Assembly (NCBI GenBank): GCA_036940085.1
Contig: JALLBK010000204.1
Location: 1 to 30,782, forward strand
From: Discostella pseudostelligera
Taxonomy: Eukaryota > Bacillariophyta > Thalassiosirophyceae > Thalassiosirales > Thalassiosiraceae
Length of the DNA: 30,782 nucleotides
Direction: 5' to 3'
In this document: in pieces, positions 19 through 27,493 of the stretch
Layout: each line of letters opens with the position of its first letter
How positions within the stretch are numbered: the first letter of the stretch is position 1
Translations under genes and position numbers: made by a program
The notes under the pieces: model-generated
The model's input: only the letters and a program-made list of their open reading frames with translations
The model's database searches: none
What the model was told of the DNA's origin: nothing

Positions 19-1384
19 TCAATTGGATGGTTTCTTCATCCTCTGCTGTACCAACTCATATGTCACGAAAAAGATACAAACACTCGGTGCAATATATGCC
101 ACTCGTGGCACTACCCCAGCAAACAGTCCCGAAAGTCCATCCTCCTGCACTATTTTCGATGCACATGCCACCACCGATCCCCCATACGTATTGGCTGTAT
201 CAGTCATCATCAATGTTTTAATTCGATCCAGGGGATTGGTAATTGCTGCCGAGAACGACCCCGCTGCGGCACCGCATGCGGCTGCTTCCAGTGCCGAGAG
301 TGATCCAGAGTCTACATCCCTCGATCGACGGCGTTTCGCCTGAAGGTAGAGACTTTTGGTTACTTCAAATGTTGTTAATTGAGCCACACGGAATGGTACG
401 TCGCTGTAAAAAGTGAGCAACATCGATGCCGACAAATCACAGAAGATTAGCAAGAAGAAAGCTGTGAGCGAGAACAAATTCCGACACAACAGATGTGATC
501 ATTCCAATTTTGATGATTCAACATCAAAAAACATACCGTGCCAAACCACCTGTATAACCCTGATAAAAACCCGCCATTCCACTCTTCTCCCAAATGCCTT
601 TAATCGCCTCACTCATGCTAGGATAAATACCCGCTTGTAATTGCTGTTTGACCACCTCGGAGGGGCACAACCATCCACTACCAGTGACATCACCCATAAC
701 TGCTGCCAATGCATAGATGAATGCCGGCTTGATACTTGGAAAACGATTCATCAAAGATTGTTTGTAGATTTCGTAGGATCCAAAGGTCAATACCCTTTAT
801 TATTTGTTGGTGCATGTATGGATCGAGATAATCAATCAGAATCATAATGCGAAATGAAAGAGATGATAATTATAAAATGACACACCGAGACAAACAGCCA
901 CTCACCCGTACGGAACCTGTCCAACCAAACTTCCTGCCACACCCTTGTACAATCCACTCATACGAAATGCATCACCCTGCTTCATTTGCATCCGCGTTTT
1001 GATGGTATCAACCGGGTACATCCCAAAGATGCTTACCGCTCGTGCCGCCGCTGCGGCAGCTAGGTGAGATCGAGCATCAATAACAGTCTGAATGAATGAT
1101 TTTAGGATGGATGATACTTGAATAGTGGAAGGTGGAGTTGATTTTGCAGTCGAGGAGAGTTTGGCGCCGCCACCGCCGCCACCGCGAGGCAATAATGCGA
1201 CCGTCGATGCGATGGCTGTGCTGGCAGCAAGGGACGACGATGGTCGTTTCATTGGTGATAGGATAGCACATGTCGGACTAGCAGCAGAGAAATGGGAGGA
1301 AAGGAAGACAAGTGCGAGAACTGAGATTAGTAGGGAGGAAGCCTTGCGGCTTGGGGGGTGAGTAGGAGGGATCATGATGGTCAT
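19..1384 (-). CDS. Mitochondrial carrier family protein, S-adenosylmethionine carrier-like
   Basis: Three exons on the minus strand, 1384-906, 794-537 and 403-19, join in phase at GTGAGT and GTATGT donors and AG acceptors to give 373 residues. All three carrier signatures are visible: P124-x-D126-x-x-K129, P204-x-E206-x-x-K209 and P303-x-D305-x-x-K308. The stretch LLRD-VPF-type (here LARDVPFRVAQ) after the second repeat, and VPYGVLTFGSYE after the first, resemble SAM carriers, which exchange SAM for S-adenosylhomocysteine across an organelle membrane. The first 45 residues form a hydrophobic signal-like segment (about 16-36) ending SAASP, followed by a Ser/Ala/Gly-rich stretch. This could be a bipartite plastid presequence, although the motif is not a clean ASAF. 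The substrate is inferred from similarity. Membership of the carrier family is secure; SAM specificity and plastid location are not. Confidence 0.85.
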
Positions 1385-1845
1385 GGTTTCAAGGTGCTAT
1401 GCTGTTGGTGTTTGAGGAGGCATCGATCATCGCGAGAGCGAAAGCGAGAGTCTGCGAGAGTGATGGTGATGGCAGGTGATGGCGAAGGCAGGTGACGTCA
1501 TTGTACTTTTCTTCCCGTCATTTTTACCTCAACGTTCCCGCCGCCATTCCTTCGCCACGAAAGACACTCTTCAAGAGAGTTGGCTCTTTGGAAGGTGGCG
1601 TTAGTCGTTGCAGAAGACCCAAAGCAATGTCAATGATCAAGCAACTCGGGAAACTGTCGTAGAAGTGCTGGATCTTTGTATCAGGTGGTTATGTGTTGTC
1701 TTTCCTTTGATGTCGTAGTTGATAAATGTCATAACTGCTTCCATCGTATCGGAATAGATGTTCCTGAACAAGTATCTTCTGTCAGTCTAATGAAACATTT
1801 CTTCTTACTAAGTATCAATAATTACTGGGCGTTGGTACAATTTTG
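1385..1845. other. Intergenic region, upstream of the carrier gene, with CRE-like and E2F-like motifs
   Basis: There is no convincing gene here. It is the upstream region of the minus-strand carrier gene and the downstream region of the transporter gene. It holds a GCGAGAG-rich stretch near 1433-1460, a perfect TGACGTCA palindrome at 1493-1500 and TTCCCGCC at 1535-1542 (E2F-core-like on the minus strand). The right part, 1600-1845, looks like plain 3' flank. Confidence 0.5.
1493..1500. promoter_or_regulatory. CRE-type TGACGTCA palindrome
   Basis: A perfect 8-bp CRE palindrome lies about 109 bp upstream of the carrier start codon. In diatoms TGACGT-type elements bound by bZIP proteins are known to mediate CO2/cAMP-responsive transcription. 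Whether this copy is used is inference. Confidence 0.35.
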
Positions 1846-3459
1846 TTAGCGTAGAATTGAGCCATAATTCACCAAGCTCCTGTTGTGTGCATCGATACCA
1901 ACTATCGCACACGACGTATTCTTGGTTTCGCCATTCATTCTTCTACCATCATTTTCTTCATCAGTTGCATCCGTCGACAGCAATAGCTCTATTTTTTCTC
2001 CCCCACATTGCATCGTTGTTTCAGAGTATTGCATGATATACTCATTGATTGCAAACACTACCGCAGATGTCATTGTTACTAGTGCACCAAAGATATTTGG
2101 ACCAGTCATATGAAACTGCGCATTCGGAGAAAACACCATGGCGACTATCCACTGGGGTATGATTTTCAATTGTCCAACTAGTCCCACTGCCACAGTCGAT
2201 GTCAAATGGGCAAGGAAGGTACAATTCACTTGGAAGATTAATGTTGGCAACGATCCACCGAGGACATCCAATTTTACAGACGATGATAAATTGCGAAATG
2301 CATGGAACCAACCAGCAGTGACCGGTATTTCATCACCACCATCTGATAAGCCATCCTCGACCGACTTCCTTGATCCCTCGAATATTGAAGCAAGCAACAG
2401 TGCCACAATTGCCGATATCGCAGTCTTTATTGCTGTCAATTCGACAGAACCCACTGATCCACACAGTCGATGATTCCTACTGTTACGACTACTCCCTCCC
2501 TCCTCCATTAATTCCACACATGCCGATCGTAATGTCGCTACACACAATCCCATGAGCATGGGTGATATCAAATTCACGCCAATGGCAAATATGGTAAAAC
2601 TGGTCGAACTCCCATCCTCCGAATGTTGTCGTCCTACTTGTACTGTCAAAATCACCGTCCCAACAAAACATCCACATAAACATATCAAACCCAATGTGGA
2701 TGTATGCTCTCCATTAATAAACCATGCACCCAATACTGTCCAAATAATGTCGGTAGATTGAAGAAGTAAATGGGTGGGAGTGGGTATGAGATGCAACCCT
2801 AAATTCATGACAGCTTTTTTGAGTCCGAATAGAAAGCCGACGGGGAAGATGATGTACAGTTTCCATAGGAAGTTGGGTCCGAAGATGCAGCTTGGTGGTG
2901 GATCAGACTGTGATAACGTGGGTACTATTGGGTTTACTGTGGATGGCACTGTTGTTGTTGCTTTGGTGAATAATTGTAATTCTTGTAGACTTCCTTCCCC
3001 TGCTCTTTCTCTACCGCTACCCCCCAAACCATCAGAACCCACTTCAACCCCACCACCATCACTACCCTTCTTCGAATAATTCACCAACCAATAATAATAA
3101 TTCCCAATATTCGCACAAGTCAACATCATCGAAACACACAGTAATTGTATCCCAGCCGTAGCCATGGGATAGGGATAATATTCCTTTTGAAAAAAGTGTT
3201 TATTGTAGATGGGTATTAAAGAGACGGTGGACCAGAAAAGTGCTATGGAGGCGGTGATGGTGATTGCACGATGGTGACGGTTTGGAAATATTGATAGCTG
3301 ATAATGATGATCTGTCGGAGATGATGGTAGGGTGGTGGCGGGAGGAAGGAGTACTATTGTTGTTTGAGGCGGTGGAGACGGCGGCGAGAGCGGCGACAAT
3401 GACGACCGATGATGTTGTGCCTCCTCCGCTGACACCTCGATGAACATAGCTTCGTCCAT
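1846..3459 (-). CDS. Drug/metabolite transporter superfamily protein (TPT/nucleotide-sugar transporter type)
   Basis: A single exon of 537 residues. It is a multi-pass membrane protein: hydrophobic helices begin near residue 66 (IALFWSTVSLIPIYNKHFF) and continue to the C-terminus. The arrangement matches the TPT/SLC35 branch of the DMT superfamily. 'IYNKHFFQ' is the family's helix-1 start, 'LIPTPTHLLLQSTDIIWTVLGAWFINGEH' matches the helix 3-4 region, and 'VGLVGQLKIIPQWIVAMVFS' matches the late conserved helix with its lysine. Members exchange phosphorylated sugars or nucleotide sugars. The substrate cannot be read from the sequence. Two low-complexity inserts are odd: a Ser/Pro-rich N-terminus and a Gly-rich loop at about residues 131-160. 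No clear plastid presequence is visible, so a Golgi/ER or outer plastid membrane location is possible. Confidence 0.78.
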   Translation of the reverse strand: MDEAMFIEVSAEEAQHHRSSLSPLSPPSPPPQTTIVLLPPATTLPSSPTDHHYQLSIFPNRHHRAITITASIALFWSTVSLIPIYNKHFFQKEYYPYPMATAGIQLLCVSMMLTCANIGNYYYWLVNYSKKGSDGGGVEVGSDGLGGSGRERAGEGSLQELQLFTKATTTVPSTVNPIVPTLSQSDPPPSCIFGPNFLWKLYIIFPVGFLFGLKKAVMNLGLHLIPTPTHLLLQSTDIIWTVLGAWFINGEHTSTLGLICLCGCFVGTVILTVQVGRQHSEDGSSTSFTIFAIGVNLISPMLMGLCVATLRSACVELMEEGGSSRNSRNHRLCGSVGSVELTAIKTAISAIVALLLASIFEGSRKSVEDGLSDGGDEIPVTAGWFHAFRNLSSSVKLDVLGGSLPTLIFQVNCTFLAHLTSTVAVGLVGQLKIIPQWIVAMVFSPNAQFHMTGPNIFGALVTMTSAVVFAINEYIMQYSETTMQCGGEKIELLLSTDATDEENDGRRMNGETKNTSCAIVGIDAHNRSLVNYGSILR

Positions 3460-3908
3460 TATTATTTGTGGTTAGATTACTTGTTGATTTTTCAATGGAA
3501 GCAATGCTGAAGGGAGACACGCAGCCTGTTGTCCATTCTTCATCGATCATGGTTATCAGGGTGCATGAGCGTCATGGTTCCTTTGAATTTTTGTGTCATA
3601 ATTTTCTGCATGCAGTGTGTTCGCTAGCTGGAGAGTCTTCGTCCTTCCCGCTCAATCCAATAGTAATTCCTCTAACAGAATTCTTGTGGATGGGAAAGAT
3701 CTCTGCAACTTCAGCAAAAGAGCGATAGTTTGTACAGTAGAGTGGTAGAAACATTCGCTGAATCGCGGGCTTCATCGGCACATCATCCACAGCCCAATCC
3801 ATCATCCATCACAACCAACAACCAACGCAGAACTCCCCTCAGCACGATGATGGTCGGTGGTCGGGTATTTGAGGGCAAGGAGTACGATAGTAGTGAAACA
3901 ACAACATC
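3460..3908. other. Divergent intergenic region between the DMT transporter and the unknown presequence protein
   Basis: Presumed bidirectional promoter. No clear TATA box or repeated element was seen. The minus strand carries an open stretch at 3596-3805 whose translation resembles a helix-turn-helix fragment; it is listed separately as a possible relic. Confidence 0.4.
3596..3805 (-). pseudogene. Possible relic of a transposon-type helix-turn-helix (Psq-like) domain
   Basis: The minus-strand translation reads NYRSFAEVAEIFPIHKNSV followed by RGITIGLSGKDEDSPASEH and CRKL, then stops at 3596. The spacing 'SFAEVAEIFPIHKNSVRG' looks like a Psq/pogo-type HTH (SxxEAAxxFgVxxxTVrxR), a domain common in repeat-encoded proteins. 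The open stretch is about 70 codons, has no partner domain and sits inside a divergent promoter. A decayed element fragment is therefore more likely than a gene. The call is tentative, since chance similarity over 50 residues cannot be excluded by eye. Confidence 0.25.
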
Positions 3909-4943
3909 ATGGCTCGCCTATCATTCCTAGCCAACACTCTCCAAGCATTGTCAATTATGGCATCATGGTCATACCATATCATGATGATGGCCGAAGTATC
4001 TTCATTTCGTATTTCTCCACCTTCTAAAAGTAGTACTGGCAGGCCATCCTTCATGACGACGATGACGACAACGTCGGCGATGCTGATGGCGCCAACATCC
4101 AAATCGGACATCCATACAGGTTATGCTTCATGGAAACCATTGCGCGATAAATCATTTGTCATCTGGAACGAACCATACTCGACATTATACGCACAATATT
4201 CATTGGCGACCACAAGAGCATCAACTCTCCTCCGAAGCAGCAGCAGCGGAAGCACAGACGACGACACGAAAGAAAATCAAACAACAACAACACCCTTGAC
4301 ACCTGAGACAATCGCTGAAATGATCGAGGTATCCTTCATTCAATCCTGTCTCCAACTCTCCCAGGGGTACATTGACGTAATCAAACTTTTCATTGTGGCT
4401 GTCAAGGCAGGATATGAAATCTCTCTTTCTCTCCACGAATTGCACACCTTGGTTACCAACTGTCCCGTAAATTCAGCTGGGAGGGATTTAATGAACGAAG
4501 AGAAGGAATTACGATATGAATGGATGAAATTGGTGTATGAATTATTGAATGCATTGAATCAAAATGCAGAGATGCAATCTGGTGATGGTGTCGGTGCAGA
4601 AGGGGGAAGTAATGCCGATGCACGGATTTCTGGAGTGGTGAAGTCCATGCTATCCATCCAACGGACACTCCTTGATGAAGAATCAAGTTCAGGTGGCAAA
4701 CAAGATGCCACAGTCAGTTTGACCAATCTTACTGTCGATCAAGCACGTGCGAAAAGTAATTCCTTATCGGTATTGTATGAAACGACACTGAACAATCCAA
4801 TGGAAAGGGCGATATTGACGAATGATATTCGGGTGGCAATATTGACATTTCGTGTTTTGCAAGAGGAGAGGATTTGTTTGCAGGATAAATCGAGTGGTGG
4901 CATGGAAGAACGAGTGCCTCGACCTCCCATACCTGGGACATGA
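3909..4943 (+). CDS. Presequence-bearing protein of unknown function
   Basis: A single exon of 344 residues that I do not recognise. The N-terminus (residues 1-32) contains a moderately hydrophobic stretch followed by 'AEVSSFRISPPSKSS'. This resembles a signal peptide with an ASAF-like cleavage site and a Ser/Thr-rich transit peptide, so import into the plastid is plausible. The mature part is mainly helical. It has a conserved-looking block at about 135-215 (EMIEVSFIQSCLQLSQGYID, the LHELHTLVTNCPVNSAGRDL stretch, then a helix rich in Glu, Trp and Leu), a Gly/Asp-rich linker at about 222-240 and a helical C-terminus ending in a Pro-rich tail. No catalytic motif is evident. Its 3' end faces that of the AlkB-SRA gene, with 154 bp between the two stop codons. 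Confidence 0.7.
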   Translation: MARLSFLANTLQALSIMASWSYHIMMMAEVSSFRISPPSKSSTGRPSFMTTMTTTSAMLMAPTSKSDIHTGYASWKPLRDKSFVIWNEPYSTLYAQYSLATTRASTLLRSSSSGSTDDDTKENQTTTTPLTPETIAEMIEVSFIQSCLQLSQGYIDVIKLFIVAVKAGYEISLSLHELHTLVTNCPVNSAGRDLMNEEKELRYEWMKLVYELLNALNQNAEMQSGDGVGAEGGSNADARISGVVKSMLSIQRTLLDEESSSGGKQDATVSLTNLTVDQARAKSNSLSVLYETTLNNPMERAILTNDIRVAILTFRVLQEERICLQDKSSGGMEERVPRPPIPGT

Positions 4944-5097
4944 CATTCAGGATGAGCATGATTAATTTATCCCTCCTAACTTTCACTCTAACACTCTAGG
5001 ATAACAGACTGTAAGTTGTTCGACATTTAAACATCGACCCATGTAGTATTGGCCTATGGTACGCCCCTTTCATCGAGAAGCACGAATCATCTCATCG

Positions 5098-8000
5098 TTA
5101 TCCCTGCATACGAAAATACTTGCGTACTGCAGGCATGTTTTTGAGCAAAGCGCTCGATGTCAGCCATTTATCGTGACTTTTGGAATATCCTTTATAATGC
5201 ACCAAGTATTTTGCACACCCGCCTCTTGCATCTTCTTTCACCTTCAATACCTTGGCCACATATAGATGATATTTGTCCCAAGCATAGATCTTTTCTTTGA
5301 CGTTGAACGTTGTCAATGCCGGAGAATTTGCATCAGCGATGTGTGCAAATCGTGGTGATGTCCGCATGCGTGTCATCTCACTTGCTTCGTGTACGCAATC
5401 ATCCAAGTAAGTAGTTTCCTTCCCGTCGGGTGAAAGAAAATCACACAGATCTGTCTTCCGACGCTTGCCCGAAATACACCACTTCACCGTCACCTTCACC
5501 TGCCTAAACACCTTCCTCCTTCTGTCCACGCAATACAACGCTTCCAAAGGCTGAGATATCGATTGCATTCCTTCTTCTACATTGGTGGTAAATCGAACGA
5601 CGCTCTGTCGAGTTCGAGGCTCGACGATTTGAGGTACTCGTTCAGGCATTTGGACTCTTTTGCGTTTGTTTGATTTCAGTTGAGTCCTTCCACCTTCGAA
5701 TATATGTTGATTACTTGTCACAAGTCTCTTACGGTTATCTGACATTGTCTCATCCCACAGAGCTTCTCCGCATATGTTACGAAGTGAACGAGTTGTACAG
5801 ATTTCAAGGAGATGACTTGCGTTATCAGTGAGCTGAATGAAACTCTTCCAGTACTCTGTCAGTATGACTGAATAGGAAAACACTTCAAGTTCCTCAAATG
5901 CATCAGGTGATATCGACATCGCAATTTTGTCGTTTACTGGAAAGCTTTCCATCGGGAGCTCTGTCTCAGCATTGTCACTCTTTGAACTCACGCTCGGTGT
6001 GTTTTGGCATGCAAATACTTGTGTTGAGGGATGGCACGGTGCACTAGAATATGTATGCATCGTCGTCGTTCCCTTCACTCTGAGAAGGCCGGCAGAACTT
6101 GCAACACTTTGAGTATTGCATCTGGCAACCGTCTCATTCAAAAGTCTTGGTAACTTATCCAAAAAGTTAAACCGACGAGGCTCAAGCACCAATTCGTGCT
6201 TACGTCCATGCGAGAGTTGAATCTTTTCCAATAGATCCTGTAAATTCAAGCGGTTGTAATAATTGTCGTTTTGACCAGTAGAATTCAATTCTAATTTCGG
6301 GTTTCGTTCAAGGTGAAAAGTAAACTGAGTGCCACCAGCAGGAATGCCATCATTAATCGCGCCAACCAGGTTGCCGTTTGCATCCCATGCTTTGGTCACA
6401 ACATCTGTTTTCATGAGTACAAGTGAGAGTTAGAAAGAGACAGGCCAAGTGCATTCATAAATGAACTCTTTACGTACACAGCCCATCATATCGGTAAGAC
6501 GTTCGGCCGCCATCAAGCTCCGGTGGGGCGTATTTCGTATTAAGGTTGGATGAACGAAAGACTCGAATCGGGTGTGTTTTAGAATAGCTCAAACAGAGTG
6601 CTCCACCACCTACAAGTTTGCATCACAGCACATGAATAAGTAAAAAGGCAAACCACAAATGAGGAATGAGTGAATTGTCACAAAACTTTCCTTGCTTCCG
6701 ACTACTCGTATACCTCAACCATTGCAACCCTGTTGAATTGATAAGATGTTTAGTATATTAACATGCGCAAGCAAGATACTTCTAGTCTTCATTGCACTCA
6801 CCGTCTTCCTCTCGTAAGCCAGGGTCTTGTCGACTGACAACAATTGAATCCGATCCAAGTTTCATACTTCCGTTAATGCCACGTTGGTCTGCCCTATGTG
6901 CACGTGACGTAAAAAGGAACCGCCTACTATGACATGATCCCTCGACAACTCCTCGTGGATGGCCAAATGATACTAATCTTAAAGTAGAGAATGCAATGCG
7001 CGTTTTGCAATAGGGTATCAGGTACTGATATGTTGAGTGGAAGTTCGAAAAAGTACTTAGCTGCATACGAACTCACGGAGCTTTGGCCCTCATCCGCGAG
7101 AGAAATGACACAAAGTTTGATATTGCTGTTTGCGAATACTCGGGCATTTCGGTGAGAGCTACACCTGTGTCGACGGGAACTATTGCCTCATTGCCGTGCC
7201 TAAAGATCAACACAAACCTATGTGCTGTACTCCCAATTCTTTTAGGTAGGGCATGCTCGTACCCAGCCTGCATTATGCCATCCATTACATAACCATCGCC
7301 TTCACCTATATAGAGCTGAATTTCTTCATCTCCGTCAGACAATTGTTTTGCTCTTTTGGTTGGCCGAACACGGATTGTTCTGGGTTCACCTGGAGCATCG
7401 ATAACAACACACAGAACAACAGATTCGCCTTCGAATATTTTTCATTGCAAAGAAGAGGTAAGAACGCGCAACAAACAGTGCTAACATCGCTGTACAACGA
7501 CATTTGGTGGTTTCAGTAACCAGTGCTTACCTTGAGTGTCATCTGCATGCCACCCTATGCTGTCCTCTCCATCTTTGTAAACAATTAGATCGACACCAAT
7601 ACCCCATTGATCATGAGGCAGCTTGTACATTCTCGCAAGATCCTTCGCGCAACTTGCAACTTCAGGTACACATTCAATCGGAAGTGCTTTCATCTTTATC
7701 CCATGGTACATGTATCCAACGTTTGATTGTGCTGCTTTGGATGAGAGTAGAACGTGGAACCTCGGCTCATTAAATATTTGACTCCGTGAGTATTGCCGGT
7801 ATAATTTGCATTGTTTCATCGCCTTTGAGAGAGCCATTCTCTTTTCATGCGGAAGTATGTTTGTATGAACACGGATCTTTCCTCCGCGGCTCAGTGGAAT
7901 ATCTATTGTCGACGTACGCTGAGAAACATCCTCGTGTAGACCTGAGCCAGCATAAATATCAGACCAAGCACTGTAGGATGCATTAGTTTCATTGTACCGC

Positions 8001-8782
8001 CTAATACGACCAATTATACGACCCGAGTTTGTTGTATTGACGTGGACATGAGAACTGGTGGAGAGTGACGAAGCAATTCCTGCATCTAACGAAGATCCTC
8101 CATGTGAGGAATCTATTGTCGCCATTCTTGTTGCAACCGTAGCAAGCAAATCCATATTTTGCATGATGAGAGAAGTGGCACCCGCAATGCTTCCATTATT
8201 GACAGTAGCATAGCTAGGAGCGGGTTGGAAGTGTAGCGAACCTTGTCCGTTTGTAACACTATCATGAGGCAACGCCCAATTCAAATACTGCATGCTGGCC
8301 AAATCATGCATGATGTGAGTATTGACAGCTGCAATAACCTGACCATTCCCAGGGAGAGCGTTTTGAAAGTATGGAGAGTGGGTAATATTATCATGATGAT
8401 ATGGTGTTGTGCACTGTTTGCACCGACTCTGTTCCAAATGACCGGCTATGACCCCATTGCAATTGCAAAGATTCTCCCCACGCAGCTGCTTATATTGCAG
8501 TCAAGTAAGTAATCATTAGAAGAAAAGCAGCAAACACGTGAACGTGATAGTTGTGAATATTATGGCAGGATAAATCTGAATTAGCGTGCACCAAGTACTG
8601 TGCAAAGTTCTCACCGTCGCATCTGCTCCGGCATCAGTCGGCGAGGATGATGCCGATACCGATGTTGACGGTGCATTTTCGCCACATCGTGGCCCGCGAA
8701 GATTCTGGTCGTCAACTGTGGCTCTCTTAAGAGAGATGGTCGCATACACTCGAGGGATCAGAAGGAGAGCATTGCCATACAT
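5098..8782 (-). CDS. AlkB-type 2OG-Fe(II) dioxygenase fused to an SRA/YDG domain and a C-terminal chromo-barrel
   Basis: Seven minus-strand exons (8782-8615, 8485-7531, 7428-7077, 6977-6802, 6729-6682, 6609-6478, 6404-5098) join in phase to 1045 residues. Residues 63-81 carry a C-x-C-x12-C-x2-C cluster. About 285-452 is an AlkB core: H369-x-D371 (GWHADD) and H433 as iron ligands, and R445...R451 as the 2-oxoglutarate arginine pair. About 493-650 is an SRA domain: FGHPRGVVEG, HRADQRGI, SIVVS, Y557-T558, PIRVFRSS, KYAP and YRYDGLY at 605-611. KRKR and GKRRK motifs suggest nuclear import. About 979-1045 is an MRG15-like chromo-barrel with Y992, Y1014, Y1017 and W1024 in cage-like positions. Expected role: recognise modified DNA and methylated histone tails, and oxidatively remove alkyl or methyl groups. 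Target base and activity are inference. The 48-bp exon 5 has a weaker donor (GTGACA). Confidence 0.88.
8486..8614 (-). other. Intron 1 of the AlkB-SRA-chromo gene, which fixes the true start
   Basis: The GTGAGA donor at 8614 and the AAGCAG acceptor at 8486 are separated by 129 bp, with a CTAATGA branch-point-like sequence near the 3' end. Removing it joins a 56-codon first exon that has a genuine ATG at 8782 to the long second exon. Without it, the second exon lacks an upstream ATG and would need a TTG start at 8437. A second acceptor 3 bp earlier (exon start 8488) would add one Gln. Confidence 0.7.
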
Positions 8783-10370: not shown

Positions 10371-10794
10371 TGGCCGTGGCCGTCATTGCGATGGGATGGT
10401 GAATGCGACGGTGGATGTGTTGCCTGTGCGTGGTGATCTGTCTGGCTTGCTCCACGTGGCAAGAGGGTGAGACTTGCTCCACGTGGCAGGAGGCTACACC
10501 CTGACACGTGGAAGCGGCAGCACTTTGGCACACCCTGACACGTGGAAGCTTCTGTCTGAGACTTCATCTGTCTGGCGTCGAATTTAATGACTAGTGAGTC
10601 TGTGAGACAAGCGAGCCTACTGGCATTTCGGACGTCATGGTCATGGTCATTTTATTCGAGAATCACAGCACGATAGATGAAGAGATGACGTCGATGACGA
10701 TTCCGTCAAAGAATCAATGATAAGTCGTTGCGATGCCCATGCCATAGAGCATTCACACCTCCAAACCCAAACGAATCTGTATTGCTATTGCATC
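10371..10794. promoter_or_regulatory. Divergent promoter between the YjbQ gene and the CCB4-like gene
   Basis: The region separates two presequence-bearing proteins read in opposite directions. The 10453-10544 segment holds four CACGTG G-boxes. Closer to the plus-strand gene are further ACGTC-type sites (near 10631 and 10687). No TATA box stands out. Confidence 0.55.
10446..10550. promoter_or_regulatory. Cluster of four CACGTG (G-box) sites in two repeated contexts
   Basis: CACGTG occurs at 10453-10458, 10480-10485, 10505-10510 and 10539-10544. The first two share the context CTTGCTCCACGTGGCA and the last two share CCCTGACACGTGGAAG, so the cluster arose by two local duplications. G-boxes are bound by bHLH or bZIP factors, for example light-regulated ones. 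Use here is inference. Confidence 0.6.
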
Positions 10795-12111
10795 ATGACG
10801 ACGTGCCGCAGTATCGCCATTCGAACTGCAATAATTTCGCTCTTGGCATTTTCAGTGGAAGGCGTGTCATCATCGTCGACGCCGCCGCGCCAGCAACTCT
10901 ACGTTCGTCGTAAAGCTGTATCAAGTCGACAACGAAATGATACAGTAATTGCGTTCCAACAATACGATTGTTCTCATGGCTCGATATTTGCATCACCAGC
11001 ACCATTATCAGCGTCATCAAGAGCGAAGCAACGATGCGACAACATCATTACCAACACTATTTGCAACAACAACAACAACATCAATAACAATCTCCGCAAT
11101 AGGCATCATCATCGCCACAAGAATAGCATGATACTACTCAACAAAATGATCAAAAACAATGATGACGAAGGTGCCTCCACCTCCTCTGCATCTTTTCTCT
11201 CCACCGATAAGGCAAAAGTTACCTTCCAAAATCGCAACACCATGTCCAACTCCAATAACAGTCGACTACTCTCCAACACCCTCTCTCCCATGGATCAGTT
11301 CCTACTAACACTAACATCCGATCGAACCTCCCTCCTTCTAGGTTCGATAGGTATAATCCTCCTACTATTGAATCGACTACTTACCTTCCCCGATGGTAAT
11401 GTTTTGTATGAAGCATCCCGAAGTCGAATGGATTTATTGGGAGTGTTTGCTGCCGGGAGTGTATTGTTGAATGGTATTACCAAATTGGATGTGGAGAGTG
11501 TTCGGGCGGAGAAGGTTGTGTTGGAGGGAAGGATTGTGGAGGAGGTGATGTGGGACGTTGGTACACTTCTCGGGGAGGAGGATACGTTCCGATCAATCGT
11601 TGAGTGGGCATTACTTTCATATCTCAAATGCACCCCGGCCAAAACTGCCATTCTTCTCACCAAGCGTGTTTCGCCGCAACAAGAAGGTAGCAATAGTGCA
11701 CAATGGCTGGCCTTGGCTAGAGTTGGCGTCGTTCCGTTCAAATCAAAAATACCAAACAAAACTCCAATCCTCGATCGGATGTTCAGCGGTGATAGTAGTA
11801 TCAAAGGCGGGACTGTGGGTGGAGCAGACGTAGCAGTTGGAACGGCAGCGGGAAATAGAAAGGGAGGGCCGAAGGAGTCCTACTTGCCCACATTGCAAGC
11901 ACTCCCGGGTAAGGTAGAGTTTACATATTTGCCATCGAATGCACAAGAGGCGTTGATATTATCCGTTTCATCACCATCGACAAGTGGTGCTGCTACTGCT
12001 GAAAGATGGAATTATGCTGTAGTGTTGGGTGGGGATGTTGCCAAGAGTTTTGCTCCCAGAGATGTTGCATGGTGTAAAGAGATTGCCTCTTGGATCGGGG
12101 ACCTCGTGTAG
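10795..12111 (+). CDS. CCB2/CCB4-like cytochrome b6f cofactor assembly protein, plastid-targeted
   Basis: 438 residues from the ATG at 10795. An in-frame upstream ATG at 10717 would add 26 residues, but the downstream Met starts a proper signal peptide (TTCRSIAIRTAIISLLAFSV), so it is preferred. A Ser/Asn/His-rich linker to about residue 165 fits a transit peptide. The conserved part starts near residue 168 with a membrane hairpin (SLLLGSIGIILLLLNRLLTF and LGVFAAGSVLLNGITK). It then runs through 'RAEKVVLEG', a central 'RSIVEWALLSYLKCTPAKTA' and the C-terminal 'WNYAVVLGGD...FAPRDVAWCKEIASWIGDL'. This layout matches the CCB2/CCB4 family, thylakoid proteins needed for covalent haem attachment to cytochrome b6. 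The assignment is from pattern, not alignment. Confidence 0.65.
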   Translation: MTTCRSIAIRTAIISLLAFSVEGVSSSSTPPRQQLYVRRKAVSSRQRNDTVIAFQQYDCSHGSIFASPAPLSASSRAKQRCDNIITNTICNNNNNINNNLRNRHHHRHKNSMILLNKMIKNNDDEGASTSSASFLSTDKAKVTFQNRNTMSNSNNSRLLSNTLSPMDQFLLTLTSDRTSLLLGSIGIILLLLNRLLTFPDGNVLYEASRSRMDLLGVFAAGSVLLNGITKLDVESVRAEKVVLEGRIVEEVMWDVGTLLGEEDTFRSIVEWALLSYLKCTPAKTAILLTKRVSPQQEGSNSAQWLALARVGVVPFKSKIPNKTPILDRMFSGDSSIKGGTVGGADVAVGTAAGNRKGGPKESYLPTLQALPGKVEFTYLPSNAQEALILSVSSPSTSGAATAERWNYAVVLGGDVAKSFAPRDVAWCKEIASWIGDLV

Positions 12112-18691: not shown

Positions 18692-21600
18692 ATGCGGATA
18701 TTCATTTCTTCCTTCGTGATTTTCCTCCAGCTTTCACCATCACTCGCATTCTCGTTTTCATCAATTCAACGAAGGCGATCTGCTGTTGCATGTGTAAACG
18801 AACGTAGACCAGTGTCAGTGGGAGCGGGGAATGATCAACTCGATATAAATGCACATAATCATGATCGTCTGCTGGATGACAACCATAATTTATCTGTTGT
18901 CGACGGCAACATCGGCTCAACCAAGAAAGGGTCTATTGCGGCAGGTGTATTGGGAGCGGCCACAGCGCAGTTTAGTGCAACCAAGGTATGTCAAGTTGTA
19001 AATACATTAATTTGCTAGTGACGTATTGGTTCGATATTTCTCAACCATTGTTCCGTATGCAGGCATTTGCTGTAGTGGGTCTGGCAGGAGTAATTACCAC
19101 CGGTTCAGTTGATGACATCACCTACCAAGATTCACGACATATCAGAGATGAAACATCAGCTGAGTCTTCTGTTGTTGTAAACAAGCAATCCTCGATACTG
19201 AAAACATCACCATCTTCTCGAATATCATCCGTTACACTGTCAAGTAATATTTTAGCAGATACTAGCATAGACGACACCTCAATTTTGGATAAAATGATCG
19301 AAAAAATGGCAAGCGTCAATGAAAAGGCACAGGCAGAAAGAATCGATGAGGCAGGTATGAAACGAAAGATACAGGACATAAAGGAAAAAGCGCTGGAAGA
19401 TGTTCCAATTATTGCGAAGCAGGCAGATAAAGAGAAATTGAATACAGAGCCAGAAAGTATTCCTACTGAGCAATCAACGCGTGCATTGGACGATGACATG
19501 CTGGAAAAAGATACTCCTGTAGAACAAAGTTCCCGAGTAGAGGAGGGCGATCGGTTGAAAGAGCAACAGGAAGCAGGGCGTTTGGCACTAGAGCAACGGG
19601 CTCGGGACGAGACGGATGCACTTCTGAAGGAGCAACAGGAAGCAAAGAGAATTGCAGCTGAGCAAAAAGCCCAAGAAGAGGCAGATGCTAGATTGAAGGA
19701 ACAGCAGGAGGCAGAGCGAGTGGCCGCCGAGCAAAAGGCCCGAGCAGAGGCGGATGCACGGCTGAAAGAACAGCAGGAGGCAGAGCGTGTATCTGCAGAG
19801 CAAAAGGCCAGAGCAGAGGCAGATCGGCTGAAGGAACAACAGGAGGCGGAGCGAGTGGCAGCAGAGCAAAAGGCCAAAGCAGAGGCAGATGCACGGCTGA
19901 AGGAGCAACAGGAGGCAGAGCGTGTATCTGCAGAGCAAAAGGCCAGAGCAGAGGCAGATGCACGGCTGAAGGAGCAACAGGAGGCAGAACGTGTGGCTGC
20001 AGAACAAAAGGCCAAAACAGAGGCGGAAGCACTGCTGAAGGAACAACAGGAGGCGGATCGAGTGGCTGCCAAGCAAAGGGCCCGAGAAGAGGCGGAAGCA
20101 CGGCTGAAAGAACAGCAGGAGGCAGAGCGTGTAGCTGCTGAACAAAAGGCGCGTGACGAGGAAATCGCAGTACTAAAAGCACAACTGGAAGCAGAGCGTC
20201 AGGAGACAGAGCGTATAGCTGCTGAACAAAAAACGCGTGAAGAGGCCATGGTGATGCTTAAACAGCAACAAGAGGCAGAACGAGTGGCCGCTGAAGCTGC
20301 GAGGATTGCAGAGCAAGAGAAACTTCAACAGGAACGCGAAGTTGCAAGAATAGAGGCGGAGCGAGTCGCTGAGGAAAGACTTCTAGCTAAGTTGGAAAAG
20401 GAGGAAAAGACTCTCATCGACTCCATATCCAAACTTGTGGCACAGGTTCAAAGACAAGAGCAGGAAAGTGCTAAGATAGAAGTTGACCGTCGTCGTCAAG
20501 AGGAAGTTCTCGCGAAGTTGGAATCCGAAGAAAAGGCGCGTACAGAGCAAATTGAACGAATTGATGCACAAGTGATTAAACTCGAGAAGGAGGCCGATGA
20601 GGCAAAAGCTGTATTAGAGAGGCTGAAGAAAGTTGAACAATCCAGAGAGGATGAGGCAAACAAGGCGATGGAAGCAAGAAAGTCACTAGTTGCAAAAATC
20701 GATTCAATAAAGTCGTTACCATCAAAGACGCTGTCAGACTTCAATTTAAGGACTCCTCAGTTCCAAGGGTCTCTGGAACTCTTCAAATCGAATTTCCCAT
20801 CAATCCCTTCACTTGATGGAATAAATTCTCTTGAGATCCCCAAATCAAAAGTTGTTGCGTCGATGCCTTCTCCATCTAGTGGACAGAAGATTCTGGTAGA
20901 ATCGCAGGCCTCTGTCAAAGACATGATCAAAAACGTTCCAGAATATGCAGTGACGTGGGGTGCGTCAGCGGTGTTGGCACTTGGTGTCATCACAGTAGGA
21001 TTTGCATTGCGTGGAGAAGGAGACGATGATGATCAAAATGGATACAACGATGATAGTAACGTATCTACTCCCTATGGATTGAGAGGACAAGGAGGTTTGT
21101 ATTCTCCAACATCATCACCATTCAATGGACAAAGCAATCCTTTTTCGAAGTCATCGTCTTCTGGTATGCCTTTGCAGAGCAGTTCGTTTGGGAATACTAA
21201 ATCATCATTCGGTAGTCCAAAATCGCAAGGATTTGGTATGTCCGGGATGGGTTCTGGATCAGGCTTCACCGGTTCACCACCGTCCATAACATTCCAGCCG
21301 CCACTCAAAGGCTCCACGATGGGTGGTAATGGACCTGGATTAGGAGGTTTCGCTCGACCAAAAGGAGGGTCATTCGGTAGCAAAACATCGTTTGGTGGAA
21401 TGCCAGGAGGTGTAGGTGGGCTCCCTACGGGTATGCCATTGGGAAAGCAGGGGGGCAATGCAGGCGGTAATACATTCACAAATTCCCAGCCGTCGTTCGC
21501 AAAAGGTACAATGAAAGGATCAAGTAGCAGTTTTGGCAACAATCAAGTAGTGAAATCGGGATCGCCGACAGGTATGCCATTCGGCCAAAAAGGAGGTGGA

Positions 21601-22155
21601 GGTAGCACTATGCCATCAGCATCAAAGTTTGGTGCAAAAGGATCGAGTGGATTCGGTAGCATGCAAGGAGGAGGGCTGGGAGGAGGAGGGCCTGGTCTTT
21701 CCTCTACTAGTATGCCATTCGGCCAAAACGGAGGTGGTGGTTTGTCATCAGTGTCAAAAGCTTCTTCAGGTACTACCAATTCGCCACCGTTTCCAACAGG
21801 ACCAATGAAAGGATCAACTGGTTTCGGTAGCATGCAAGGAGGAGGACTAGGAGGTGGTCCCGGGCTCACTCCAGGTATGCCATTACCAAAGTCAAGCACT
21901 TTTGGAGGCAACCCACCGCCGTTCGGTGGTGCAAATGGAACAATGAAAGGTGCAAGCGCATTCAAAAGTGGGCCTGGTTTCCAGTCAGGCATGCAAAAGG
22001 GAGGTGATGGTGGCGATGGCAGTGGCTTTTCATCAGTATCAAAGACTTCTTCTGGCAACCCACCGCCGTTTCCAACAGGACCAATGAAAGGATCCGGCTC
22101 TGGCTTTACTGGAGCTCCGAAGTCGTACGGTAAATCATCGTTCAAAAAGGGATGA
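18692..22155 (+). CDS. Presequence-bearing coiled-coil repeat protein with a Gly/Phe/Ser-rich tail
   Basis: Two exons, 18692-18985 and 19063-22155, join in phase 0 to 1128 residues. It begins with a clear signal peptide (RIFISSFVIFLQLSPSLAFS); SLAFSF resembles the diatom ASAF plastid motif, followed by a basic, Ser-rich stretch. A hydrophobic segment spans about 80-112. Residues 263-496 are ten tandem units of about 23 residues built on LKEQQEAERVAAEQKARAEA, followed by further Glu/Lys/Arg coiled coil to about 650. A single transmembrane helix lies at about 726-748 (TWGASAVLALGVITVGFAL), followed by an Asp-rich turn and about 370 residues of low-complexity tail with repeated GFGSMQGGGLGGG, MPFGQ and PPFPTGPMKG blocks. 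No enzyme motif was found. A structural or tethering role on a plastid membrane is a guess. The family is not recognised. Confidence 0.75.
19555..20256 (+). repeat. Ten tandem 69-bp coding repeats
   Basis: In-frame units of 69 bp each encode LKEQQEAERVAAEQKARAEA plus three residues. Unit 4 lacks one Ala codon and unit 10 carries a five-residue insertion. Units 3-7 are nearly identical, which suggests recent unequal exchange. Long open stretches on the minus strand here are by-products of the repeat. Confidence 0.85.
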
Positions 22156-23744: not shown

Positions 23745-25691
23745 ATGTCGTCTCGTCGGACCAAACAATCGCCCATGCCATTGCGTCTACCTAATCTCAT
23801 TCGAGCAAGGCTTGTTATTTGCTCCGTCTCGGTCGTAATTTTGGGGCTAGTGTGTTATTTGGTGAGTGAGAATATCGTCGGGAGATGAACAAAAAATGAT
23901 CGAGCATCTGAGTTCTGAGAGTCGTCGATCCTATTTATCTATTTCGAGTGCTAACATTCGCATGTATATTTGATTAATATCCGTTGCTTTAGGTGGTTGC
24001 AACAATCATGGGCCGTCCACAGTATTTGTACTATGATGAGGATGGCATCGACTCTGCCGGCGTGAATTCTCCCGTTATCGAATATTTAGCACCACATGAT
24101 GATGATCATGATGGCAGCGGCACCAGCAAAAGCAGTAGTAGCTCCTCGCTCAATCCAGATTTTTTGTATCAGCCATCTTCGCAACCTGAATATGTGCCTC
24201 CGCCTAGAGTCGTTGTGTTTTACGCGCCATGGTGAGATTGAGGATTGAGGTGCACGTGAACTGAGATTGTCATTGATATATGTTATGCTTTATTCTCACA
24301 CTAAATTTTCAACCCTTGTGCAAAGGTGTCCCCATTGTGTTCATTATGTACCAAAATACAAACAATTAGCAACGAGCGTCATGTCCGCCAATCCTACCAT
24401 AAAATTTTATGCCATCAGTTGTGTAGCCCACAATGAATTGTGCCATGCCCAAAGCATCCATTCATTCCCAACGATCAAACTATTTCGTGAGGGAAGCTAT
24501 GAAGAACGAAAGGGCAAAGTGGGTATTGATTCCAATTCCGTCCTTAGGGAATTGGGTTTTGACGAGCTCACTGTAGGTGGAATTGACGATAATGATAAGG
24601 GAGCAAGTGTAAAGAAAGGGCACTCGAGGGTGACACCATTCCGAGATAATGATGTACATGATGCGTGGTCCGATGCCGCTCTATCCTTCGAATTTGCACT
24701 AAAGAATGGGATATACATGGAACATGGTCCACTCGCCGACGACAAACGAGATGCCTTCCGCAATTGGTTGGACCTGCTATCGAAATCCTTACCGGCACAA
24801 ATGAAACGGACACACGCTATCATCATTGCAGTATTGGACAATTTCTCACTAGCGAGTAGTGGGCAGTCGGAATTGGATGAATTAGTTCGCAGTCAGGTCT
24901 TCTCCGAGACGTCGTTGTCCGCATCGTCGTGGAGGACTTGTACCAATGGCAACAATGAAATGGGGTACACATGTGGATTATGGGATTTGTTTCACATCAT
25001 GTCCGTGGGTGTGGTGGAGTACAATCGTCACAATAATCCGCCGATACCCACGAGGCATGCCTCGGAGACATTGCGAAATTACATCGATCATTTCTTCCAA
25101 TGCGATGAATGTCGGATGAATTTTCTATCCATGTATGACACATGTGCATTTGATGGCTGTCATCGGCTTTCGGAGAATCCATCGTCGAAAGAAGAGGAGT
25201 GGCGTGAATTGACTCTGTGGTTGTGGGAGACTCATAATGATGGTCAGTAAATCCTCTCTCCAGAACTACTTGTTTACCCGTTCAAGTTTTTGTGCAAGAC
25301 ATATCCATCTCATCCCGTTCGTTTTTATCCCACAGTGAATGTCAGATTGCTTGGTGAGCGGTTAGAGGCAAACAAGGAGTCGAAACCGAACCATTCAGAA
25401 TCGCAGCAATCACGATGGCCATCATCGCGTTCCTGTCCATCTTGCTGGAGGGGAGATAATAGTTGGGAGCAAGAGGAAGTATTTAACCATCTCCACAACA
25501 TGTACTGGTCAGGCAATCCGAACTACATCAAAATTGCATCCGACAATTACGAAACGATAAGCAGCGGTGGTTGGTCTCAGACGCTATTGCGATGGAAGTT
25601 CACACTTGTTAGCTTTGTCTTTGCCATGCTCATCAGACACATTTATAAATGGAAACGAAGGAAATTGACTTCAGGGCAGCATAAAAAGTGA
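23745..25691 (+). CDS. QSOX-type flavin-dependent sulfhydryl oxidase (thioredoxin + Erv/ALR domains)
   Basis: Four exons (23745-23861, 23993-24231, 24326-25242, 25336-25691) join in phase to 542 residues. An N-terminal signal-anchor (about 20-46) is followed by an acidic Ser-rich stretch. A thioredoxin domain with the split codon W119 then C120-P-H-C123 and 'HSFPTIKLFREG' follows. Next is an Erv/ALR FAD domain: WDLFHIMSVG (WxxxHxxS), C378-D-E-C381 as the redox disulfide next to FAD, and H422-N423-DVN as the FAD-contacting HNxVN motif. A CPSCW motif follows near residue 470, then a C-terminal transmembrane helix (LVSFVFAMLIRHIY) with a basic tail. QSOX enzymes make disulfides in secreted proteins and pass electrons to O2. 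The ATG at 23745 is preceded by an in-frame stop and by an overlapping upstream ATG in another frame. Confidence 0.92.
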
Positions 25692-25848: not shown

Positions 25849-27084
25849 CTACGACTGCGTAAACAGTTGCCTCTTTGTCATCTGCACAATATTGTCCACC
25901 AACTCTTCCGTCGCAATCTCCATCACCGCACGCAATGGTTTGCCGAGCTCTCCACCAGAACCAAACCCATCCTCATCTGTCTCATCCATTCCCTTCTTGC
26001 CCAAGTTTGAAGTAGTGGCAGTCGAAGTAGGAACGGGCGACGACGAGGCTCGTTCGCCCGACGAAATGCCACCACCTCCACCAGTCTTGGACGACATGAG
26101 TGCCGAGGGTCGATCAATCATACTAGCTGCTGTACTACTATTCTCGGGAAGGAATTTATTAATCCGTTCCGCGGCAGAACATAGTCCCTCGGCATGACGA
26201 CACGTCCTCTCCTCTCGTTCTTCCGACACTCCACCCCCTCCACCTCCTCCTCCCAAGGCTCTCATCCACAAAAAATTCTTAGTCAACGACTCCAACACAT
26301 ATCGTGCTCCACTACTCATATAATACTCCACCCCCAATTCATAATAGCTTGCATAACAACTCCCCCATTTCTCCAACCTACTCTGTTCCTCTCGAATCAC
26401 CTCACCATTGGGACAAGTATATGGTACCGGATGAGTATATTCCGGAGGATACGCTCGAAATGCCTTCAACTCTGGTACATTCTTTGCCAAACTCCGAAGT
26501 GGATCCACAACAATTGCCAAAAATGGATTCCCATGTCCATCCTCGGCACGTTGCCATTGCAATTGTGTACTCACATCGGTCTGACTTAAAAAACAATGAC
26601 TTCGTTCACACAAATCAAATGGATGACTGTGATACCATCCCATAAACTTTTCTTTTCGTGTTGGTTCCAATGATTCCCCCAGGGCGATCATGTGGTTAAT
26701 GACATCATTGTCATCTGCCACAACTCGCGTTTCGAATCCTTCAATTGGCAAGGGGAATACATCCGTCACCACCAATGTATGAGGAGTAGTAGGATCCGGC
26801 CTCCCTAACAATAATCCCATGACTTCAATAGGATTCCCACCCGAGGCAATGCCCTTGGTAACACCGGAATGACAATGGGTCATCATTTTCATAATGGCGA
26901 CTGGACCGACAGCAACATTGGTGAAGTAGTGTGGGTCGAGTGTCCAGGGTGAGGAATGGCGGAGTTGTTCGAGTGCGATGGGATCGCAGGAGTAGCGGGC
27001 GTTGGCCATGTTGATGCTGGCATTGGCGGTGGTGGCATCGCTGGTGGTGCTGCCCGTGGCAGTAGTAGCGGAGGAGGAGGGCAT
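25849..27084 (-). CDS. CSN5: COP9 signalosome subunit 5-like JAMM metalloprotease
   Basis: A single exon of 411 residues. The N-terminal ~30 residues are Ser/Thr/Ala-rich. The MPN+ domain follows: E87 in NPIEVMGLLLG is the catalytic Glu, H152-S-H154 (GWYHSHP) and D170 are the zinc ligands, and S167 precedes D170. CSN5-typical text surrounds it: 'FPLPIEGFETRVVA', 'VSTQLQWQ', 'FLAIVVDPLRS', 'LKAFRAYPPEY' and 'YYELGVEYYMSS'. CSN5 removes NEDD8 from cullins in the COP9 signalosome. Odd point: 12 residues separate H154 from S167, against seven in the canonical HxHx7SxxD motif, and no intron explains the extra five. A Gly-run at about 276-283 and an acidic, Gly/Ser-rich linker precede a C-terminal helix. 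Its start faces that of the NOT3 gene, 409 bp away. Confidence 0.9.
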   Translation of the reverse strand: MPSSSATTATGSTTSDATTANASINMANARYSCDPIALEQLRHSSPWTLDPHYFTNVAVGPVAIMKMMTHCHSGVTKGIASGGNPIEVMGLLLGRPDPTTPHTLVVTDVFPLPIEGFETRVVADDNDVINHMIALGESLEPTRKEKFMGWYHSHPFDLCERSHCFLSQTDVSTQLQWQRAEDGHGNPFLAIVVDPLRSLAKNVPELKAFRAYPPEYTHPVPYTCPNGEVIREEQSRLEKWGSCYASYYELGVEYYMSSGARYVLESLTKNFLWMRALGGGGGGGGVSEEREERTCRHAEGLCSAAERINKFLPENSSTAASMIDRPSALMSSKTGGGGGISSGERASSSPVPTSTATTSNLGKKGMDETDEDGFGSGGELGKPLRAVMEIATEELVDNIVQMTKRQLFTQS

Positions 27085-27493
27085 GGTGATGGTGTTGTTG
27101 GGATAGACGGGCGGGGCTTGTTACGGTGATAGAGCGGCGGCGGCGGCGGATGTCATGGTCATGGTAGTCATGGTGGACGGTGAACAATATAATGTTTTGG
27201 CGGGAGAGAGGGGGAGGCAAAGTGCTAGCGGCATTTTTTGGCGGGAGAGAGGGCGACATCATACGGACAGACGATGATGTGGCGCCAGACAGACGCCCCA
27301 GCCAACTCCAACCTCCAAAGCAACAACAACAAAACGAGCAAGCAGGGTGCACAACAACAACAACAAGCTCCCAACAACAATCGAGCACAAGCGAGCGGCA
27401 CCACCAACAATTAAATAATTATTGACTTCGATCTTCCGCCGCCGCCGCCATCGGGAAGTAATACTACTACTGCTGCTTCAGGAGAAATAAACC
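27085..27493. promoter_or_regulatory. Divergent promoter between CSN5 and NOT3, with duplicated E2F-like element
   Basis: The region contains TTTTGGCGGGAGAGAGGG twice (27195-27212 and 27236-27253), each with an E2F-like TTTGGCGGGA core. It then has a long CAA/ACAACA-rich stretch (about 27315-27410) that probably forms the NOT3 5' leader, and a CCGCCGCCGCC tract near 27436. Confidence 0.5.
27195..27253. repeat. Direct repeat of an 18-bp E2F-like element
   Basis: Two exact copies of TTTTGGCGGGAGAGAGGG start 41 bp apart. The core resembles the E2F binding site, and the spacing is about four helical turns. Confidence 0.6.

Follow-up and report, generated by a model that had tools for sequence, protein, structure and literature searches.

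A predicted AlkB-SRA-chromo-barrel protein of Discostella pseudostelligera from a conserved ochrophyte family of ALKBH2/3-like dioxygenases fused to a diverged SRA domain

Human ALKBH3 and ALKBH2 are DNA dealkylases, and the TET/JBP DNA oxygenases are likewise Fe(II)/2-oxoglutarate (2OG) dioxygenases acting on DNA bases. The SRA domain is known as a reader of modified DNA that is combined with chromatin domains in UHRF1/UHRF2 and SUVH and is joined, going by the record name, to a nuclease in the TagI restriction endonuclease, whereas the chromo-barrel is known from MRG15, EAF3 and MSL3. In this study, we analysed a stretch of 30,782 nucleotides from the diatom Discostella pseudostelligera (assembly GCA_036940085.1, contig JALLBK010000204.1, positions 1 to 30,782; hereafter the window), and found that a gene on its minus strand (8782-5098) encodes AlkB, SRA and chromo-barrel domains, in this order, in one protein. 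Its make-up suggests an enzyme for repair or demethylation that is directed to marked chromatin. The reading that we prefer, albeit at somewhat less than even confidence, is that the protein belongs to a conserved ochrophyte family in which an ALKBH2/3-like Fe/2OG dioxygenase and a diverged SRA domain share one chain, to which this member adds a C-terminal chromo-barrel, and that it carries out chromatin-tethered dealkylation repair.

All three domains pass their Pfam cut-offs on the joined protein, as a preliminary description made from the DNA letters alone had predicted: 2OG-FeII_Oxy_2 (PF13532) with 44.5 bits against a cut-off of 31.2, SAD_SRA (PF02182) with 49.3 against 30.7, and, for the chromo-barrel, MSL3_chromo-like (PF22732) with 30.5 against 28 and Tudor-knot (PF11717) with 26.9 against 20.8, whereas Chromo (PF00385) stays below its cut-off (21.7 versus 25.1 bits). 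The AlkB domain (7199..7864, minus strand, about residues 264-451) is interrupted by intron 2 and contains the iron ligands H369 and D371 (HxD) and H433 and the 2OG arginines R445 and R451, which the family alignment places exactly where they had been claimed. The SRA/YDG domain (6310..6973, minus strand, about residues 494-639) is built from exons 4-7, and the chromo-barrel, of the MRG/MSL3/Tudor-knot type, lies at 5113..5307 of the same strand (about residues 974-1038). When the protein was compared with the sequences of solved structures, ALKBH3 and TagI were each matched at E 1.3e-4 and an EAF3 homologue (2lrq) at E 4.9e-5. A structure model of one relative matches ALKBH3/ALKBH2 as well as the SRA structures of TagI and UHRF, with DNA-bound entries among the matches, so that both the AlkB and the SRA fold are found; the absence of a family from this fold-match list does not count as evidence. 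A Pfam match to Sarcoglycan_2_C below cut-off (E 0.014) was taken as chance, and NCBIfam gave no match at E up to 0.01 for three sequences.

The seven exons join without a frame break. Exon 1 (8782-8615) holds residues 1-56 with the start codon at 8782; it is not conserved and is the least certain of the seven, and neither the exon nor the start codon is backed by relatives. Exon 2 (8485-7531) encodes the N-terminal region and the first half of the AlkB domain including H369 and D371, and exon 3 (7428-7077) the second half, with H433, R445 and R451, and a linker. The SRA domain starts in exon 4 (6977-6802; VSFGHPRG...SIVVSRQDPGLREEDG), continues through the core segment LQWLRYTSSRKQG of exon 5 and the segment GGALCLS...PIRVFRSS...YRYDGLY of exon 6 (6609-6478), and ends in exon 7 (6404-5098), which also contains a long linker, the chromo-barrel and the stop codon. 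Introns 1-6 are 129, 102, 99, 72, 81 and 73 bases long, and all six end in AG, whereas a clear GT donor is found in five. For intron 5, a GA donor (CAAG/GAAAGT) ends exon 5 at 6729-6691 and gives 1042 residues, the length conserved in relatives, and a weak GT donor nine bases further on (TTTT/GTGACA) extends the exon to 6682, inserts KFC between RKQG and GGAL, and gives 1045 residues. Both choices leave the frame open; two other GT donors would leave the conserved segment four or five residues shorter. The CAAG/GAAAGT site may belong to a GA-AG intron or may reflect a variant of one base or an error in the assembly; otherwise the three extra residues may be a real insertion. The open frame and the assembly of the SRA domain from exons 4-7 agree with the preliminary description, whose length of 1045 residues follows from the weak donor.

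The lack of a strong GT donor in intron 5 at the conserved length, together with the unsupported exon 1, could be taken to mean that two neighbouring genes, one for AlkB and one for SRA and chromo-barrel, were joined by mistake. We give practically no weight to this explanation. AlkB and SRA pass their Pfam cut-offs only after exon joining (single-exon frames score 18-21 bits), and 19 of 36 related proteins (P0001-P0019) support the joins, aligning to 78-100% of residues 230-720 with 41-56% identity. Furthermore, the same domain order occurs in one frame across many independent records and transcript-derived frames. Given this conserved order in relatives, we rejected a gene-join artefact, which is close to refuted.

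The AlkB-SRA combination is widespread among the relatives. Residues 230-720, used as a query, retrieved 36 proteins, of which 28 have an AlkB as well as an SRA label (precomputed Pfam labels, as in all label counts here). An alignment search that scored only the 8000 candidates sharing most words gave 23 proteins, seven of them new, and a search with the SRA region only gave 21 proteins, none new and 17 with both labels. In total, 32 of the 43 related proteins found carry both labels, the family count being a lower bound. Three proteins without an AlkB label (P0017, P0020 and P0022) nevertheless contain the AlkB residues, with profile matches below cut-off in P0020 and P0022, and three others (P0032, P0035 and P0036) lack AlkB letters in their aligned rows, begin at or within the SRA region, and may be truncated gene models. 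Where letters are present, 39 of 40 family rows retain the HxD, 39 of 39 the second histidine, and 40 of 40 both 2OG arginines (RxxxxxR). The named sources are Thalassiosira profunda, Stephanodiscus triporus, Cyclotella cryptica, two Triparma, Chrysophaeum and Aureococcus, that is, centric diatoms, Triparma and pelagophytes. The nearest named relative is that of T. profunda, which covers 96% of residues 230-720 at 55% identity, and the nearest row overall is P0039 (68% over 309 columns). Sequence and fold show the architecture, its conservation across lineages, the iron ligands and the 2OG arginines.

In a midpoint-rooted tree of the 39 rows that were long enough, out of 44 (43 relatives and the window protein), a pelagophyte-type group of 13 rows (support 100/99), a group of Triparma with P0019 (99/96) and the pair P0018 and P0040 (100/99) are well supported, the diatom-type group of 19 rows that includes the window protein is weaker (82/87), and P0033 and P0042 are on long branches. 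Because AlkB-SRA proteins are found in all tree groups, we infer one old AlkB-SRA fusion, with readers probably exchanged later. Profile scans for prokaryotic or viral relatives gave 43 pattern matches in viral contigs and 140 in genome contigs, none of which was confirmed by tblastn, a result that covers these patterns only.

In contrast to the AlkB-SRA core, the other readers vary. The aromatics of LY, HYKGY and DKW in the chromo-barrel correspond to those of IY, HYAGW and DEW in the EAF3 homologue, whose NW is SH here; they are candidates for the positions of a methyl-lysine cage. Unlike in MRG15, EAF3 and MSL3, the chromo-barrel here ends an AlkB-SRA protein rather than an MRG protein. Chromo-barrel labels are present in six of the 43 relatives, five of which also have AlkB and SRA. 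A PHD-like finger (PF13771) label replaces the chromo-barrel in 10 of the 43, although on re-scanning it was just below cut-off in both checked carriers, P0021 and P0026; zf-CW, SAP and PF03457 labels occur in two relatives each. P0019, P0026 and P0028 are AlkB-SRA relatives that carry zf-CW or SAP domains, and therefore a chromatin or DNA reader seems to have been exchanged between lineages. Judged from these comparisons, the chromo-barrel is a variable add-on and not part of the family core.

In our view, the protein most likely repairs alkylated bases, for instance 3-methylcytosine (3mC), in methylated chromatin. In this reading, the SRA domain and chromo-barrel would hold the enzyme on chromatin with modified DNA and a methylated histone, and the AlkB domain would flip out a base methylated on a nitrogen, with 3mC or 1-methyladenine as the likeliest candidates, and hydroxylate the methyl group, which would be released as formaldehyde. 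3mC could arise as a by-product of cytosine methyltransferases, and the repair enzyme would then be tethered where methyltransferases cause damage. According to a review, cytosine methyltransferases and ALKB2 co-evolve because the methyltransferases make 3mC off-target (PMC9246332). The 23.0-Mb genome (963 contigs) contains eight C5-methyltransferase matches on five contigs, with frames of about 159 bits on C575 and C92 and one on C88 that is presumably DNMT2, going by its motif. Diatoms are reported to lack DNMT1 (PMC8566409), and Phaeodactylum to have DNMT5-dependent methylation (PMC9998398).

Several observations weigh against dealkylation repair of this kind, or against the generality of the family. 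The Asn of the NxY motif is a 2OG contact typical of AlkB, but this position is I357 in the window protein, and Ile (21), Val (18) or Leu (1) in all 40 rows, which, together with the fusion to SRA and chromatin readers, sets the window protein apart from human ALKBH3 and ALKBH2. The six other AlkB frames of the genome keep the Asn, as read from the frames. Because the profile, the ligands and the fold are those of AlkB, we treated the loss as divergence inside the AlkB family and not as a defining feature, and the catalytic domain is best described as ALKBH2/3-like; the replaced Asn argues for caution on the 2OG site of AlkB-SRA proteins. The SRA pocket differs as well. UHRF1, SUVH and TagI SRA domains have GGYxDDxD, YTGxGG and a finger loop in the base-pocket stretch, and these pocket motifs are absent from the family, YT excepted, so that this is not a 5-methylcytosine (5mC)-reading loop. 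A stand-alone ALKBH2/3-like gene (L001) is already present in the genome, and therefore plain 3mC repair by the AlkB-SRA protein would be redundant. In P0018, the sole HxD exception, WSSN replaces WHAD with the architecture kept, and the one other SRA place found in the genome, on contig C43 (L016, G000:C43:1-9990, frame 2696-8137), encodes SRA followed by repeated chromo-barrels with no AlkB match within this frame, an upstream AlkB exon being possible. On the family side, a re-scan of seven relatives put P0001 below the Pfam cut-off for SRA and P0010 below those for AlkB and SRA, both models missing part of SRA. No pennate diatom is among the named-source relatives, which are a minority of the matches, although Phaeodactylum has the methylation mentioned above.

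The main rival, which we consider possible though clearly less probable, is that the protein is an epigenetic eraser whose AlkB domain oxidises a regulatory mark (N6-methyladenine (6mA), N4-methylcytosine or 5mC) recognised by the SRA domain, with the chromo-barrel or PHD-like finger restricting it to certain chromatin. A substrate shift could underlie both the loss of the NxY Asn and the altered SRA loop, and a modified-base reader fused to an oxidase, with interchangeable chromatin readers, would suit such a role. In addition, an AlkB gene of the ochrophyte Nannochloropsis is reported to remove 6mA in vitro, and its knockouts to contain more 6mA; that enzyme, however, was described as an ALKBH1 homologue (PMC10943562), whereas the window protein is ALKBH2/3-like. 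Nor was an MT-A70 writer matched in this genome, and TET/JBP likewise gave no match, although the same searches gave none in control genomes either. In the window protein itself, no Tet_JBP (PF12851) match was found with Pfam at E up to 1, a scope that also applies to the absent RING, PHD and SET matches below. This absence sets the protein apart from TET/JBP; the demethylation or repair route that the preliminary description had put forward stays conjectural, and the ALKBH2/3-like domain speaks for dealkylation repair no less than for mark erasure. A broader proposal is that these proteins form a separate ochrophyte family of chromatin-targeted oxidative DNA-base enzymes, with altered 2OG-site chemistry, a remodelled SRA pocket that reads a mark other than plain 5mC, and interchangeable readers, and so represent an erasure or repair route independent of TET/JBP and free ALKBH. 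We regard this as possible, though well below even odds.

The base-pocket stretch of the SRA domain is a conserved RQxxxxREEDGxxWLRYTSSRRQGGGAL-like segment, much alike from diatoms to pelagophytes, that diverges in P0018, P0040 and most of all P0033. It is shorter than and different from the pocket loop of TagI, and the SRA domain here follows a dioxygenase rather than being joined to a nuclease. Because the pocket loop differs, a 5mC-reading SRA of the UHRF1/SUVH type was not adopted, and the modified-base reader claimed earlier stands as a domain above cut-off but not as a 5mC pocket; that it acts as a reader is plausible. SRA domains are DNA base-flipping readers, which is one reason why action on RNA at chromatin (1-methyladenosine, 3-methylcytidine or N6-methyladenosine), with SRA and chromo-barrel only locating the enzyme, seems very unlikely to us; nothing in the analysis points to RNA, and the SRA fold matches include DNA-bound entries.

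Another alternative is a protein that chiefly reads methylated chromatin or serves as its scaffold, in a UHRF1-like role and in a lineage for which the absence of DNMT1 is reported, with AlkB activity secondary, or lost or dead in some paralogues. The lost HxD of P0018 and the L016 frame, in which three Tudor-knot stretches pass and which resembles P0018, are consistent with it, and UHRF1-type accessory proteins are flagged for further study by Hoguin et al. (PMC9998398). However, we think it improbable, because HxD and 2OG arginines kept at the frequencies given above over several lineages are hard to explain without catalysis, and because the window protein, although it shares with UHRF1/UHRF2 and SUVH the SRA fold, has no RING, PHD or SET match. 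Searches of this genome for SRA and AlkB can miss exon-split genes, and the window gene itself was missed because it is split over exons. Among the six other AlkB places, one on contig C4 is ALKBH2/3-like, matching ALKBH3 at E 5.6e-16 and ALKBH2 at E 1.7e-15, and L018 (G000:C421:1-6000, 524-4648, minus strand) is a 1374-residue frame with an FAD-binding domain, ankyrin repeats and AlkB, another unusual AlkB fusion.

Elsewhere in the window, the frames for a CCB2/CCB4 cofactor assembly protein (10681-12111), a JAB/MPN protein (25849-27120) and the CCR4-NOT subunit NOT3 (27863-29887) are ordinary neighbours of the AlkB-SRA gene. A frame at 24249-25250 joins thioredoxin and Erv1/Alr as in a sulfhydryl-oxidase-like protein, and a 1059-residue frame at 18976-22155 contains numerous repeats of the KEQQEAERVAAEQKA type and is rich in glycine at its end, with no Pfam match at 1e-5.

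In the titles and abstract starts of the literature searched, which covered part of the results only, no description of an AlkB-SRA protein was found, and an earlier mention is possible; the terms SRA and AlkB have zero counts in the main text of the 2023 study of diatom methyltransferases by Hoguin et al. (PMC9998398). As far as these searches reach, the protein thus represents known domains in a conserved but undescribed combination. An ALKBH2/3-like enzyme physically joined to an SRA domain would make the idea of methyltransferase-ALKB2 co-evolution directly testable, and Cyclotella cryptica and Aureococcus, both named carriers, can be cultured. For diatoms, such a protein would be a candidate for connecting DNA methylation and histone marks with repair or removal.
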